Below are positions 4,486 to 21,415 of a stretch of 24,523 bases of DNA, piece by piece; the stretch's first letter is position 1; every line of letters starts with the position of its first letter. A program made the position numbers and the translations under genes. The stretch is from a virus: positions 1-24,523 of IMG/VR virus record IMGVR_UViG_3300030098_003120; one strand, 5' to 3'. A model generated the notes under the pieces. The model was not told the DNA's origin, did no database searches, and saw nothing but the letters and a program-made list of their open reading frames with translations.

Positions 4486-4758
4486 TTACCATTTTACTTT
4501 GTTTGCCCAATAGGCTGCTGAGAGTTTTCCTTTGGCTATGTTGGCTGCATGGCGAGCCTTAAAGCTTTTTCTTCTGGCTTTGTCCTTTGGGGTCTTTGGG
4601 TTTTTACCTGCACCACTGACACCCTTTTGTCCAAACCTAATGAGTTTTATTGTGGATCCTGATTTAGCTAAGACAGCATGTGACTTAGTTTTGTGTCCTG
4701 GAGTTCTTTTTGGTTTGTTGTATCCAGAGAACTTTTCTCCTGATCTTTCAATAGCCAT
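4486..4758 (-). CDS. Small basic conserved phage protein (90 aa)
   Basis: A 90-residue basic protein with a pattern I recognise from small proteins of marine podo- and myoviruses: GEKFSGYNKPKRTPGHKTKS, then HAVLAKSGSTIKLIRFGQKG, then RRKSFKARHAANIAKGKLSA and a final YWANKVKW. The central LIRFG-G-G and RHA-NIAKG-SAAYWA-K motifs are diagnostic of that group. The function is unknown; the charge and late position fit a minor virion or DNA-binding protein. It is the first gene after the tandem promoter-like repeats, whose predicted starts (4832 and 4796) lie 74 and 38 bases upstream of its ATG. The leader contains the recurrent AACAAACAAAG. Confidence 0.82.
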   Translation of the reverse strand: MAIERSGEKFSGYNKPKRTPGHKTKSHAVLAKSGSTIKLIRFGQKGVSGAGKNPKTPKDKARRKSFKARHAANIAKGKLSAAYWANKVKW

Positions 4759-4793
4759 ATTTAAGTAAGGTATTTGTTTCCTTTGTTTGTTCT

Positions 4794-4816
4794 TACTATA
4801 GGAACACCTATAGATA
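4794..4816 (-). promoter_or_regulatory. SP6-like phage RNA polymerase promoter, copy 1 (proximal)
   Basis: One of two identical 23-bp units. Read on the minus strand from 4813 it has CTATAGGTGTTCCTATAG with +1 G at 4796. Against the SP6 promoter (ATTTAGGTGACACTATAG) it matches 13 of 18 positions, including all of TAGGTG at -14 to -9 and CTATAG at -5 to +1. It sits 38 bases before the ATG at 4758 and faces the genes. The unit is nearly palindromic, so the opposite strand also shows CTATAG, but there TAGGTG is lost. Confidence 0.65.
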
Positions 4817-4829
4817 CTAGGTTTGTAAA

Positions 4830-4852
4830 TACTATAGGAACACCTATAGATA
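4830..4852 (-). promoter_or_regulatory. SP6-like phage RNA polymerase promoter, copy 2 (distal)
   Basis: An exact copy of the 4794-4816 unit, 36 bp away, with predicted +1 G at 4832. The identity stops exactly at the 23-bp unit: the flanks differ on both sides. This is the length of a T7-class promoter and supports selection on the unit itself rather than a recent larger duplication. Confidence 0.65.
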
Positions 4853-5065: not shown

Positions 5066-5383
5066 TTACTTTTTTTGTTTAAGGTAAGAAGTGTGTTCTT
5101 TTTTGAATGTAGGAACAACCAAGTTTTCCACAGCTCTGACTAGTGCTTCCTCTAGGTTGTCATTATCAAGCAAATAGCCAATACCACTGAGGGCAAAACA
5201 AGCATGCACTACCTCATGGAGAATAGTGTCTAAAGTGTCTTCTTCACTGAGGTTCTTTCTGATGGAGATTGTTCTCCTTTCAAAGTGTAGGACCCCAAAG
5301 TCATCCATTTGTTTGTATTCAATGGAGAACTTATGGCCCCCAATCATCACCTCAGTGGGTCTATATTTGGGTTGTTTTGCCAT
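5066..5383 (-). CDS. Small zinc-metallopeptidase-like protein (HEXXH)
   Basis: A 105-residue protein with a zinc-binding motif TILHEVVHACF (H56, E57, H60) and a downstream acidic helix NLEEALVRAVENL whose glutamates at 78-79 or 86 could supply the third ligand. This minimal layout resembles SprT-like or ImmA/IrrE-like small phage metallopeptidase domains. The substrate is unknown. N-terminal residues 12-44 form beta-strands (VMIGGHKFSIEY, GVLHFERRTISI). It follows the large terminase by 55 bases. Its ATG lies inside a T7-promoter-like sequence (5380-5397). T7 has no such gene after gene 19. Confidence 0.8.
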   Translation of the reverse strand: MAKQPKYRPTEVMIGGHKFSIEYKQMDDFGVLHFERRTISIRKNLSEEDTLDTILHEVVHACFALSGIGYLLDNDNLEEALVRAVENLVVPTFKKEHTSYLKQKK

Positions 5384-15828: not shown

Positions 15829-16611
15829 TTATAAAGGTGGAAGAATTGAGAAAGGTCCGATAGGGTCTATATTCCCTATTGTAGTGTTGCCTAGCCCTCT
15901 TAAATCAGGAGGGCCAACAAATGGAATTTGTCCTATGTTTCCTCTTAAATCAGGAGGGCCAACAAATTCAACAAAGTTGTTTTCTGGAAGAGGTGGGGTA
16001 ACTGAGCTAAAAGAATTTTCTCTTACAGGAATTGCTCTAGGTGCGCCATCAACAACAACTTCTGCTCTAGCAGCATTTGAAACGTCAACTCCTCTAGACC
16101 CCCAATCTTGAGCGACTGACTGCATAGAGGTTCCTACTTGAAGCCCTGTAAGCAGTGCTTGCAAAGGATTCTCTTGTTGAATCGGTTGGTTAATGCCAAG
16201 CAAGTTCATACGGCTTCTCATACGAGCGTCTTCCATAGACAGAGCTAGATTTGTGTTGCTCATGTCTTGCCTTTGGTTCTCATAGAACCTAAATTGCGCT
16301 TCTCTTCTTGTCATGTCATCAACAAGAGCATTAACACTAAGCCCAGTAACTCCTGCTTCACCAGCAGCTACTGTAGCTCTAGATCTAGCTTGCTCTGCTT
16401 GAAGGCTTGCTGATCTAATCCTTTGTGCTGACGCTATATTTGCTTGTGCCTGTTGTAGTCTTGCAGATCCTAATTGATCCCTAAGTCTGGCTTGTTCAAG
16501 CTCCGTGGCTCTTGCTTGTGCTCTTTCCTGTGCTGATGCCGCTTGGCGTTGCCCTATAAAGGACGCCCCAGCAGAAGCAATTCCCGCGATTAAACCGATT
16601 GGCGCACACAT
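15829..16611 (-). CDS. Internal virion protein (T7 gp14-like)
   Basis: A 260-residue protein starting MCAPIGLIAGIASAGASFIG, an N-terminal hydrophobic segment, followed by a long Ala/Gln/Arg-rich helix (about 22-110, with many AQ-AR repeats) and SMEDARMRSRMNLLGIN. This is the layout of T7 gp14, which inserts in the outer membrane as part of the ejection channel. It is longer than gp14 (196 aa) because of a Pro/Gly-rich C-terminal tail with two copies of FVGPPDLRG; the underlying DNA has a 27-bp exact repeat. It begins three bases after the stop of the gp13-like gene. Confidence 0.8.
   Translation of the reverse strand: MCAPIGLIAGIASAGASFIGQRQAASAQERAQARATELEQARLRDQLGSARLQQAQANIASAQRIRSASLQAEQARSRATVAAGEAGVTGLSVNALVDDMTRREAQFRFYENQRQDMSNTNLALSMEDARMRSRMNLLGINQPIQQENPLQALLTGLQVGTSMQSVAQDWGSRGVDVSNAARAEVVVDGAPRAIPVRENSFSSVTPPLPENNFVEFVGPPDLRGNIGQIPFVGPPDLRGLGNTTIGNIDPIGPFSILPPL
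15896..15967 (-). repeat. 27-bp direct repeat in the gp14-like gene
   Basis: CCTCTTAAATCAGGAGGGCC and the seven bases that follow are identical at 15896-15922 and 15941-15967. The 45-bp period equals 15 codons, so the reading frame is kept and FVGPPDLRG is duplicated in the protein tail. It looks like a recent in-frame tandem duplication. Confidence 0.9.
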
Positions 16612-17097: not shown

Positions 17098-19672
17098 ACC
17101 TGTTTGATCGAGAGTGGACAAAGGACTCAAACTCAGCTCCTTGAAGTGTGCTTGGGTATGGTGTTCCGTTCTCGATGGTTATTGTTGTGTTCTCTGGCTT
17201 GGTAAACACAGGAAAACTAAACGTCCCTGAATCAAGACTAATGCTGTCTACATCGGAGTCATCAACAACTTGTGTTGTAAACTCGTTTGTATACGTTGAG
17301 CGTCTCTCTGGTGTCACCTTCACTTGGAAGAAGGCTGAGTCATCAAAGAACACATTTCCATTCTTTATTTTATTCTTTGTGTATCCAGTGGCTGACTTTC
17401 CTTTACCAGATGCCACTTTGAAAAGCTGCTCAGAGAACGTGTATTGCATGTCATACTCGACACCTACAAATACGTCTCTGTCTGTTGTTTGTGATTCAAA
17501 AACAAGCTGGTTTGAGTTGGTAATGTAATCAACATTGTTGACAGTGATTTTACCTCTTGTGTATGGAATCTCCATACCTGTAGACCTGTCGATTACCTTG
17601 AGCCTTGCTCCTGTTGAATTAAAGCTGTTGCCATTAAAGTCAGTGGCTTCAAAAGGAAGGTAATCAAGGTGTGTATCAGTCTCGTCATCTACAGCAGTAA
17701 GTTGTGTTTGATTAGCTCTAATCTTCTTAGCTACCCTGAAATCAAGGTGAGTCATAAAGCCAAGGTTTGATCCATCACTAAGGTTTTCTTCGTCAGGAAG
17801 ACCAGAAGTAAACGTCATCCCCAAGATCATAAAGTCCTTACCAGTAGACCTTACTAAAGCTCCGCTTCCATACTCACCACCAGTAAGAAATTGGTAACTT
17901 GACCCAAAATACCTGTCTGTTGCGATGTAGAGCGTTGAGTCAATAAAATCAATACCTCTAATCTCACACCCTTGCAGAGTAAACTTACTCCACGCACTCA
18001 GGATCTTTTGGTTACCACTCCAGAAATACTTGTAGATATACAGGGTGTCTTTTGTCTCACTGCTAAGAACCGCAATAACGTCCTCAGTAGATGACCCAGC
18101 CACATCAATAACATTCTTTGGTATGTAGCTTGGGATGTGGTTTGTGACTTCTTCAGCCGTGTAGGTGTCACCGGTAGCACTTACAGCAAACTCTCTGAGT
18201 CCTGAAAAATTGCCACGGGTAAACGGAAAGTAAATATAGGAACCAAGAGAGATCGGGTTAATTCCTGTGGCTTGATCGTAGTTAGTAATCGGGTTTACTG
18301 ATACTGTGGAGGGAGTCAATAGGTCGCCCCCTTTGAGCACAAACTGTCCTCTGTTACTGAACAAAATAAGGTTCTCTTGGAACGCTTCTGCTGACTCTAG
18401 GTTAGTTACGTTTGTAGTAGCTACTCCAATGTCAATCGGATCTGAGTCCAACAGGTTAGTTACTGTGGTTCGAAACAGGTTAAAATACTCACCTGCTTCA
18501 CTCATAACCACCTTGTCTGCTGACAGGAATCCAAGACGATTCTTGTAGAAAAACAAGTTGTTGATTGGGCTGCCAATAAAAGATGGATCAGGGTTTGATG
18601 TGCGGTCCCCTGCTAGTCTTGCTCGCCAAGGAGTAGTTGTAAGTTGAAATCTGTTTAAACTACGAGACACCAAATTGTATGGCATGTTAGCTGCATCAAG
18701 TGCGTTAGGGACGTTAAATCCTACATCTTCAACCCAACCACCGCGCCCCATCTCTCCATTGTTAAGGAGTTCGTTAGTCCTAAAATTTAAATAGTAATCG
18801 TCTTCACTAAGCTCTGCGTCCCCACGAACCTTTACACGAAACCCATGTGGAGCTACGACAGGAAGGTCAGTAATGTCAGCTACTTCCTTGTAGACCACAC
18901 CAAGCCCTTTGTCTGCAAAGCCGTCCTTTGTTTTAATGTTAAAGTCTGCTGTAGAATCTTTAACAAGTTTAATTGTAGATCCTTCGACTGTAGCTGTGAT
19001 GTTTGGTATGTCGTTTAACTCACTTCCAAGTTTTTTAGCTATTTTAGCTGAATCAACAGAACAATCTATTGCTGAATCAGGTGTTCCACTTCCCGAATTT
19101 GTAGTAGTTACGCTTTTAGTTTCAGTATTTTCGTCATTACCTAAAACAGACACCTCATAAGTTTTGTCATACCCCGCTTGCTTAACGAATACCAACGCCT
19201 CGTTCTCATTTACGTCATCAGAAATAGAACCATCTGACTGATCCATCTGAGTAGTAACCGTCTTGTTTACAATCCAGGTGTTGTCTCCAACAGTAAGCGC
19301 CTTGAGGTCCTTTCTAGGGTTAGTTGTTTTTAAATAAGGAGCAAGCGTATTTAAATCTATTGGTGTTGTGCTTCCATCGTTGTATTTCATCGTCCCGCTA
19401 TCAAGCAGGTTGTGAATAGTCAACGTAGATGGAGTAATAACCATCAAATACTTCTCAGACTCACTTCTGTTAATCGTATGAACAAAAGCATTCTCGCCAA
19501 TCTCTGTTGCGTCATACTTAACAAGGTTCGCATTTGGACGCTTTTTTAGTCCATCAGATACAGAAGAGTAAGCGTTTATCTGCTCCTTGCACTGACCATC
19601 ATACTTGAGTGTATCAGGCTGCTGGCTAACCCCTTGAATTAGGTTAGGAACAGAAGTGTTGATGAGCGGCAT
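17090..19672 (-). CDS. Tail tubular protein B (T7 gp12-like nozzle)
   Basis: An 860-residue protein in the place and size class of T7 gp12 (794 aa), the tail nozzle. The start MPLINTSVPNLIQGVSQQPD, with TLKYDGQCKEQINAYSSVSDG and LKKRPNANLV, is highly characteristic of this family. The rest is beta-rich with recognisable segments such as PSFIGSPINNLFFYKNRLGF and the SENLILFS-like RGQFVLKGG. It begins six bases after the stop of tail tube A and overlaps the gp13-like gene. It binds the tail tube and closes the channel until host contact. Confidence 0.93.
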   Translation of the reverse strand: MPLINTSVPNLIQGVSQQPDTLKYDGQCKEQINAYSSVSDGLKKRPNANLVKYDATEIGENAFVHTINRSESEKYLMVITPSTLTIHNLLDSGTMKYNDGSTTPIDLNTLAPYLKTTNPRKDLKALTVGDNTWIVNKTVTTQMDQSDGSISDDVNENEALVFVKQAGYDKTYEVSVLGNDENTETKSVTTTNSGSGTPDSAIDCSVDSAKIAKKLGSELNDIPNITATVEGSTIKLVKDSTADFNIKTKDGFADKGLGVVYKEVADITDLPVVAPHGFRVKVRGDAELSEDDYYLNFRTNELLNNGEMGRGGWVEDVGFNVPNALDAANMPYNLVSRSLNRFQLTTTPWRARLAGDRTSNPDPSFIGSPINNLFFYKNRLGFLSADKVVMSEAGEYFNLFRTTVTNLLDSDPIDIGVATTNVTNLESAEAFQENLILFSNRGQFVLKGGDLLTPSTVSVNPITNYDQATGINPISLGSYIYFPFTRGNFSGLREFAVSATGDTYTAEEVTNHIPSYIPKNVIDVAGSSTEDVIAVLSSETKDTLYIYKYFWSGNQKILSAWSKFTLQGCEIRGIDFIDSTLYIATDRYFGSSYQFLTGGEYGSGALVRSTGKDFMILGMTFTSGLPDEENLSDGSNLGFMTHLDFRVAKKIRANQTQLTAVDDETDTHLDYLPFEATDFNGNSFNSTGARLKVIDRSTGMEIPYTRGKITVNNVDYITNSNQLVFESQTTDRDVFVGVEYDMQYTFSEQLFKVASGKGKSATGYTKNKIKNGNVFFDDSAFFQVKVTPERRSTYTNEFTTQVVDDSDVDSISLDSGTFSFPVFTKPENTTITIENGTPYPSTLQGAEFESFVHSRSNRYG

Positions 19673-19678
19673 ATTTTA

Positions 19679-20269
19679 TTAAATGTCGTAGTTACGATTA
19701 ATACCAATGCCTGTGTAGACATCGTAGTTGTCAAAGATTGTCCTGTCACTTCCTCTGGAATCTACTTCTTCGAGTTGTGACTTGGCAATAAATTCGTCTC
19801 TGGCAATCAAAGCTTCTAGCTCTCTTGATCCCATCATGCGCGTCTGAAAGATTCTTGATGCTCTGAGTGTGATATATCTACGTGCTTGTTCGTGCAGATC
19901 ATCCCAGTCCAGCAGAAACGTAATCGTTACATCAAGAGAACCAGAAAATTCGTTTGTATTGTTTTTACGGTCGTAAAGCTTTAGGCCCCGCTGAACGACA
20001 TCCTTTGAGCCGTCAGTTGCGTCTACGTGCAGTGTGTTTGCAGGAAGCTGAATTGTATTATCAGGCTGGGGCGTAAGAGTAAATTTGTTTGTGGTATTGA
20101 AATGCCACCCCATGGTTTGCACCTCTCGACTAACTTCATCCAATACTGACAAAGCTGTAGAAGCTGAAACAGGGAGGGTAGAGGTGTCTGCAATGCTATT
20201 CACTGGAGCTTCTCCAATGTGACCTAGCATACTGTTGACTGCCTCTAGTGGAGTTGTGAGAGTTGCCAT
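19679..20269 (-). CDS. Tail tubular protein A (T7 gp11-like adaptor)
   Basis: A 196-residue protein, the same length as T7 gp11, that forms the adaptor ring between portal and nozzle. Typical features are the N-terminal LEAVNSMLGHIGEAPVNSIA, the helix with LDEVSREVQTMGWHFNT, the block LKLYDRKNNTNEF and the C-terminal RRYITLRASRIFQTRMMGS. It follows the capsid gene and its terminator, as in T7, and precedes tail tube B by six bases. Confidence 0.93.
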   Translation of the reverse strand: MATLTTPLEAVNSMLGHIGEAPVNSIADTSTLPVSASTALSVLDEVSREVQTMGWHFNTTNKFTLTPQPDNTIQLPANTLHVDATDGSKDVVQRGLKLYDRKNNTNEFSGSLDVTITFLLDWDDLHEQARRYITLRASRIFQTRMMGSRELEALIARDEFIAKSQLEEVDSRGSDRTIFDNYDVYTGIGINRNYDI

Positions 20270-20281
20270 AAATTTAAAGTA

Positions 20282-20326
20282 GAAAAAGGGGAAGCCCCCA
20301 CAGGAATTGAACCTATGGGGGCCTCC
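20282..20326 (-). terminator. Terminator after the capsid gene (T-phi position) with tRNA-like T-arm hairpin
   Basis: On the minus strand 20326-20312 pairs with 20304-20290 over 15 bp (two G-U), with the 7-base loop TTCAATT, then CCCC and TTTTT (20287-20283). It lies between capsid and tail tube A, exactly where T7 has its main late terminator. The top of the hairpin, ATAGG-TTCAATT-CCTGT, has the 5-bp stem and 7-base loop of a tRNA T-arm, including GGTTC-A-CC; the next 7 bp resemble an acceptor stem. No D or anticodon arm is present, so this is not a tRNA gene. Confidence 0.88.
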
Positions 20327-20344: not shown

Positions 20345-21415
20345 TTATGTGGTCTTAACAAGAATAGCGGCTTCAGGACGAAGCACACCGTGACCCATTG
20401 CATACTTAGCTGCAAAGAGGGTAGCTTGACGCTCGATCTGATACTCACTTTCGGTAGCAAGATCAAGAAGCTTAACAGTTCCTACAGCAGCTTCGTGACC
20501 GGCAATAAAGCCACATCCTTTAGCAAATGTAGTTCCATCAGACATAGCGGAAAAGTCGCCATTGTATCCGTGAGGAGTAGCATCAGAACCGCTAGTATCA
20601 CCAAACGGATCGTTGTTTACTCCAGGAGCAGCAGTATCCTTAACAGAGTCTTCAAGGGCGCTTACATCTTTGATGTGGTTACTCTTAAAGAGACGAATAC
20701 CGGCAACCTCAACAATAGTTCCTTTAGCAACGTCAGCATTACCAGCGTTAGCAGTGTCCTTGTTGATTGCTACGTTTACTCCATTACTGTCAGCAGTAAG
20801 AAGCTTGTAGTATTCAGCAGGAGACATAACAGCAAAGCGCCCATCAGATGGAACGTCTTTGGAGTCAAGGGTCTCAGCTACGCTAAACAAAGCGTCGATC
20901 AGTTTATCGGAAGTAGTGAGATCACCACCATCAATAACCGTCCCTGCACCTTGTGGAGCAGTAGCACTCTCACTAGCAGCAGCAATAAACGTCTTAATGA
21001 TGTTCAAGTCACACTCCTTAGCCAGCGCCTTACCAAGCTCTGCGGAATAAATAGAACGAAGATCGTAGTGGTTACGAAGCTCGTCGATATTAGCAATAAG
21101 CGTGGAAGCAACAAGAAGGTCATCAATAAAGACTTGCCTTTCGTTGTGGGCGATTTGTGACAAGTAGTTTCCAGTAATAAGAGAATCACCCGGAGTGTGG
21201 TATGAAGCACTCGCGGTTCCTGTTACTGGGAAGCTTGCCGATTTACCTGAACTAATGGAGCGAACCATAGTCAGGTCTTTCATAATGTTGTTCTCGTTGA
21301 ATGCCGTCAGGATTTCACCTGCAAACACCTTCAAGAACAACGCATTGTCCCCGTTTGCATCTGCACTCCTTGAAGTTGCGTTTACTGCTCCGGGAATCGA
21401 TGGAATAGTAGCCAT
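20345..21415 (-). CDS. Major capsid protein (T7 gp10A-like)
   Basis: A 356-residue HK97-fold capsid protein, similar in size to T7 gp10A (345 aa). Strong matches to T7: NALFLKVFAGEILTAFNENN, MVRSISSGKSASFPVTGTAS, HNERQVFIDDLLVASTLIAN and IDELRNHYDLRSIYSAELGKAL. The C-terminus has the FAAKYAMGHGVLRPEAAILV strand. A 137-base leader precedes it and a strong terminator follows, which fits high expression and matches T7. No sign of the T7 10B-type frameshift extension was found: the terminator follows the stop directly. Confidence 0.96.
   Translation of the reverse strand: MATIPSIPGAVNATSRSADANGDNALFLKVFAGEILTAFNENNIMKDLTMVRSISSGKSASFPVTGTASASYHTPGDSLITGNYLSQIAHNERQVFIDDLLVASTLIANIDELRNHYDLRSIYSAELGKALAKECDLNIIKTFIAAASESATAPQGAGTVIDGGDLTTSDKLIDALFSVAETLDSKDVPSDGRFAVMSPAEYYKLLTADSNGVNVAINKDTANAGNADVAKGTIVEVAGIRLFKSNHIKDVSALEDSVKDTAAPGVNNDPFGDTSGSDATPHGYNGDFSAMSDGTTFAKGCGFIAGHEAAVGTVKLLDLATESEYQIERQATLFAAKYAMGHGVLRPEAAILVKTT

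Follow-up and report, generated by a model that had tools for sequence, protein, structure and literature searches.

A hairpin downstream of the capsid gene of a T7-like marine phage: probable transcription terminator with a loop that resembles the tRNA T-loop

Does an RNA hairpin that follows a phage capsid gene owe its tRNA-like loop to a tRNA, or is it a terminator that came to look like one? The question is raised by a stretch of viral DNA of 24,523 nucleotides, positions 1 to 24,523 of the record IMGVR_UViG_3300030098_003120, which we refer to as the window. In the gap from the capsid stop codon to the start of the gene for tail tubular protein A, its minus strand carries a hairpin that had been likened to the acceptor/T-arm minihelix of a tRNA. 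The locus consists of the following features, given in the direction of transcription.

20345..21415, minus strand: gene of the major capsid protein, T7 gp10-like, which precedes the hairpin; assigned by PHROG (major head protein, E 8e-76)
20290..20326, minus strand: putative terminator hairpin of 15 bp with a 7-nt loop, pairs 20326-20290 to 20312-20304; stem kept by compensatory changes in relatives
20305..20311, minus strand: loop TTCAATT (20311-20305), in agreement with the consensus of tRNA T-loops, with no conservation beyond the clade of the window
20280..20289, minus strand: U-rich tract CCTTTTTCTA after the stem, the putative terminator tail
19679..20269, minus strand: gene of tail tubular protein A, T7 gp11-like, which follows the hairpin; assigned by PHROG (tail protein, E 2e-52) and by synteny with annotated phages

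Read on the minus strand, positions 20326 to 20290 are GGAGGCCCCCATAGG-TTCAATT-CCTGTGGGGGCTTCC, followed by CCTTTTTCTA. The sequence bears out the first part of the original prediction, namely that a hairpin with a TTCAATT loop (UUCAAUU as RNA), closed by GG/CC pairs and in agreement with the T-loop consensus, follows the capsid gene. The geometry that had been assigned to it, a 5-bp stem stacked on 7 bp to give 12 bp that end in a U and then CCCC, does not hold, and the 12-bp boundary belongs to the drawing and not to the molecule. U20292, C20291 and C20290 pair with A20324, G20325 and G20326 (GGA/UCC), so that there is one continuous stem of 15 bp, and because the stem extends for these three additional pairs, the would-be acceptor end is not free. 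What comes after the closed stem is CC and a run of U's, without a discriminator base and CCA.

The T-loop is an uncommon feature. In a survey of distinct hairpins with 7-nt loops and stems of at least 8 bp in related contigs (3.0 million strand-bases), it was present in 1 of 113, and this one was the element under study; the match was, however, chosen post hoc among many possible RNA motifs. The hairpin itself is exceptionally stable. A terminator scan reports 15 pairs, 10 of them G-C, plus a U-rich tail, and the 40-nt stretch that covers the hairpin folds with -31.3 kcal/mol, the lowest value among the 24,484 stretches of this kind on both strands. For a 71-nt stretch, folded as the plus strand with its similar complementary hairpin, the z-score against dinucleotide shuffles was -2.9, and an equally good fold was reached by 1 of 200 shuffles. 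The hairpin structure is not an effect of base composition.

The capsid protein has relatives in 1,369 phage records. From viral contigs and phage genomes, we gathered relatives of this protein and of tail tubular A, and we compared 161 distinct spacers between the two genes. All of them contain a hairpin below -12 kcal/mol and 158 of the 161 a hairpin below -18 kcal/mol, a count that is weak by itself, as it takes the best fold of each spacer without a shuffled control; the argument is carried by the position of the hairpins, by their U-tracts and by covariation. The tails after the spacer hairpins have a mean of 7.3 T in 15 bases. The T-loop was found in just 11 of the 161 distinct spacers, all of them from the small clade of the window, in which tail tubular A shares at least 87% identity with that of the window, and it is kept in every one of the 11 distinct variants of this clade that have an intact hairpin. 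It is absent from every other spacer of the set. In L009 / L260 (IMGVR_UViG_3300030060_002936), the 3' arm of the hairpin runs directly into the interior of tail tubular A and the start of the gene is missing, through either a join made in assembly or a genuine deletion.

The next relative (L012, tail tubular A 82% identical) carries GGAGACCCCCATAGGGTTAATAGCCCCGTGGGGGTCTCC, and its U-tract of U8-U9 follows directly after the stem. Two pairs of its stem are altered on one or both sides and are still paired (G.U and G-C have become G-C and A-U), and its loop region is rewritten, without a T-loop. Further out, homologous hairpins retain the GG/CC closure and have the loops TTAATT, TTAATC, TCAATC, CCAATC, ACAATC, TCTATC and TTTCTCATT. 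As RNA, such loops (e.g., UUAAUU, UCAAUC, CCAAUC) differ from UUCAAU(U/C) by a single inserted base or by a few substitutions; the insertion of one C converts GGTTAATTCC to the GGTTCAATTCC of the window. More distant phages have wholly different hairpins in the same spacer. Related phages thus keep a hairpin at this site with unrelated loops and stem lengths, which is the finding that, by the terms of the original prediction itself, speaks against a tRNA-like element.

Eleven homologous hairpins were aligned; they were hand-picked from the set that looked homologous, so that the counts lean towards structure. In this alignment, 9 of the 15 pairs have changed on both sides and 88% of the cells are paired. 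The covariation score is 0.350, compared with a shuffled mean of 0.142 (none of 500 shuffles reached 0.350) and with values of at most 0.25 for slid partners. It is the would-be T-stem that fails, with half of it unpaired in most of the homologues: pair 12-30 is unpaired in 7 and pair 13-29 in 6 of the 11 homologous hairpins. Judged from the aligned sequences, it is the stem that is selected, while the loop is free to drift.

In T7 and related phages, capsid is produced in far greater amounts than tail protein, and a terminator directly follows the capsid gene. We consider it very probable (roughly 0.94) that the hairpin of the window is an intrinsic terminator, i.e., a stem-loop with U-tract, at the T-phi position of T7 in a marine Autographiviridae-type phage, and that the match of its loop is a coincidence. 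The basis for this reading is directly established: it consists of the position, the stem, the U-tract, the compensatory conservation of the stem, the lack of conservation of the loop, and the T7-type RNA polymerase in close relatives (present in 3/4 of the larger relatives). It agrees with the suggestion, made already in the original prediction, that a terminator may have converged on this loop. What speaks against a terminator is that the stem and the U-tract of the window are separated by two C's, an arrangement that is less than ideal for intrinsic termination. In the T7-like phage LUZ100, the capsid of which is related to that of the window, transcript mapping places a strong terminator directly behind the capsid gene, "similar to T7" (PMC10134795); it is annotated as T16.

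Together, these data suggest a model for the transcript end. An RNA polymerase, most likely the T7-type enzyme of the phage and perhaps also that of the host, would continue transcription of the minus strand beyond the stop codon of the capsid gene. The 15-bp hairpin would fold in the nascent RNA, the polymerase would pause on the U-tract, and much of the transcript would end there. Termination itself, as well as its efficiency, we infer. The outcome would be plentiful capsid mRNA whose 3' end is protected, along with reduced read-through into the tail genes. For termination, the sequence of the loop should be irrelevant, and the resemblance to the tRNA T-loop in this clade would then be fortuitous.

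A tRNA or tmRNA gene or an Rfam family at the hairpin was considered and ruled out: ARAGORN called no tRNA or tmRNA in the window, and Rfam searches gave no family at E≤1 over the window and no tRNA match at E≤10 on the hairpin segment. A more elaborate proposal is that the 3' end of a tRNA, T-arm plus acceptor strand, was captured and became a terminator when a complementary 5' arm was added. The loop and the upper stem do fit a T-arm, and real T-arms can be very similar, such as ACAGGTTCAATCCCTGT in a tRNA region of an alphaproteobacterium; among the matches listed, many to AGGTTCRANYCCTGTGGGG lie in bacterial and archaeal tRNAs, and a relaxed pattern hit numerous tRNA genes whose T-arm is alike, chiefly those for tRNA-Arg, -Asn and -Gln. 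However, the 3' segment, taken as the 20-mer ATAGGTTCAATYCCTGTGGG with T or C allowed at the variable loop position, had 0 exact matches in about 85,000 genomes, a collection that may lack the host. Among the relaxed-pattern matches listed, the TTCAATY loop occurred in none of the tRNAs, none was identical over the acceptor strand with TTCAATY, and TTCAATY was never combined with GGGGGC in a tRNA. The few TTCAATY matches among those listed were not called as tRNAs; one of them is a palindromic hairpin in a flavobacterium, which indicates that such hairpins arise by themselves. A 23-mer, searched with up to three mismatches in 1,045 alphaproteobacterial, gammaproteobacterial and cyanobacterial genomes, had few matches: the best of them, with two mismatches, was outside tRNA, and two with three mismatches fall in tRNA regions. 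Known phage and plasmid DNA resembled the hairpin at chance level only, and a search of the literature for tRNA-like phage terminators brought up nothing relevant. As the homologous hairpins of relatives have 6-nt loops and unpaired positions where the T-stem should be, the T-arm seems to be a single step in a family of hairpins that drifts, and a captured tRNA end is a highly improbable origin. We judge it just as improbable that the hairpin is, or once was, a phage attachment site aimed at a host tRNA gene. Three larger relatives, G001-G003 (the contigs of L010, L005 and L006), encode a tyrosine integrase, and the hairpin is the only good GGTTCRANYCC motif in G001. The integrase gene is situated about 2 kb upstream of that for the T7-type RNA polymerase in close relatives, but it is far from the hairpin, at distances of about 18 kb in G001 (15.5 kb versus 33.7 kb), about 20 kb in G002 and about 22 kb in G003, and the integrase regions of G001-G003 contain no tRNA, no Rfam tRNA match, no T-loop motif and no tRNA-like attP. 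In marine T7-like phages, the published attP sites lie downstream of the integrase and match a tRNA exactly over about 36-46 bp (PMC8776855, PMC3861242), longer than the identity of the hairpin to any tRNA that was checked, and an attachment site does not fit with the many relatives that keep the hairpin with other loops.

The remaining tRNA-related reading leaves termination in place and adds to it: in this clade, the 3' end of the capsid mRNA would also be a tRNA mimic, recognized by enzymes such as a T-loop uridine methylase or pseudouridine synthase, the CCA-adding enzyme or RNase P. Enzymes that act on T54/U55 require little beyond a T-arm, and the T-loop is retained throughout the 11 clade variants. 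However, the acceptor end is closed by three extra pairs and followed by CC and U's instead of a discriminator and CCA. Moreover, the parts that define a T-arm, its loop and upper stem, lack conservation outside the clade of the window. Since the close relative L012 lacks the T-loop, the loop is dispensable close by, and it is missing from all other spacers as well. Taken together, we see hardly any likelihood in tRNA mimicry. The same low estimate applies to the idea that the terminator loop of this clade has come to be recognized by host enzymes that modify or bind T-loops, which would protect or mark the 3' end of the capsid mRNA. In L006 and L018, 34 of 37 positions of the hairpin are the same and the loop is unchanged (UUCAAUU/C), although DNA identity in the adjoining tail tubular A gene is down to about 79-80%; this difference of about 20% leaves formal room for a clade-specific role of the loop. 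To account for the constancy of the loop within the clade, plain conservation of sequence in a short and strong terminator suffices.

Some other features of the window deserve mention. At 4785-4852 on the plus strand, in the gap between the ORFs 4486-4758 and 5066-5383, there are two 32-nt copies of a near-palindrome, TACTATAGGAACACCTATAGATA, which are 91% identical and 36 bases apart. Within this region, ACTATAGG resembles the core of T7-type promoters; no copy of the near-palindrome was found in the relative G001. A perfect 27-nt direct repeat, with the copies 45 bases apart, is present at 15896-15967 inside the ORF 15829-16611 (minus strand), in which it encodes a repeated VGPPDLRG peptide. 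The genes for the capsid and for tail tubular protein B contain islands of low identity, at about 20724-20923 (capsid residues ~164-230) and at 18924-19123, respectively. Around the islands, the identity of contig L002 to the window is mostly 98-100%, but in those 200-base bins it is only 74%, and other relatives dip there, too. The islands may be exposed segments that evolve fast or are exchanged.

The analysis settles a tempting likeness: a perfect T-loop at the 3' end of a phage mRNA is, with high probability, the freely drifting loop of a terminator hairpin, as judged from more than 100 relatives. It also strengthens the case that marine T7-like phages widely share a terminator directly behind the capsid gene, and no new biology is needed to account for the hairpin. 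With the acceptor/T-arm minihelix of tRNA, the hairpin shares a G-C closed 7-nt loop, UUCAAUU, that meets the T-loop consensus; it differs in its continuous 15-bp stem without a free 3' NCCA end, in the lack of a match to a tRNA gene or model, and in a loop that is not conserved in relatives. With the attP sites of T7-like marine phages that lie in tRNA-Leu (P-SSP7, S-TIP37, pelagiphages), it has in common that relatives of the window carry a tyrosine integrase, but it is not located beside the integrase and has no long exact identity to a tRNA. The closest parallels are T-phi of T7, between gene 10 and gene 11, and T16 of the Pseudomonas phage LUZ100. The stem and loop sequences are different from theirs, the window has its two C's before the U-tract, and termination in the window is a prediction; what agrees is the site, after the capsid and before the tail tubular A gene, the orientation, the strong hairpin with a U-rich tail, and the T7-type RNA polymerase in close relatives.
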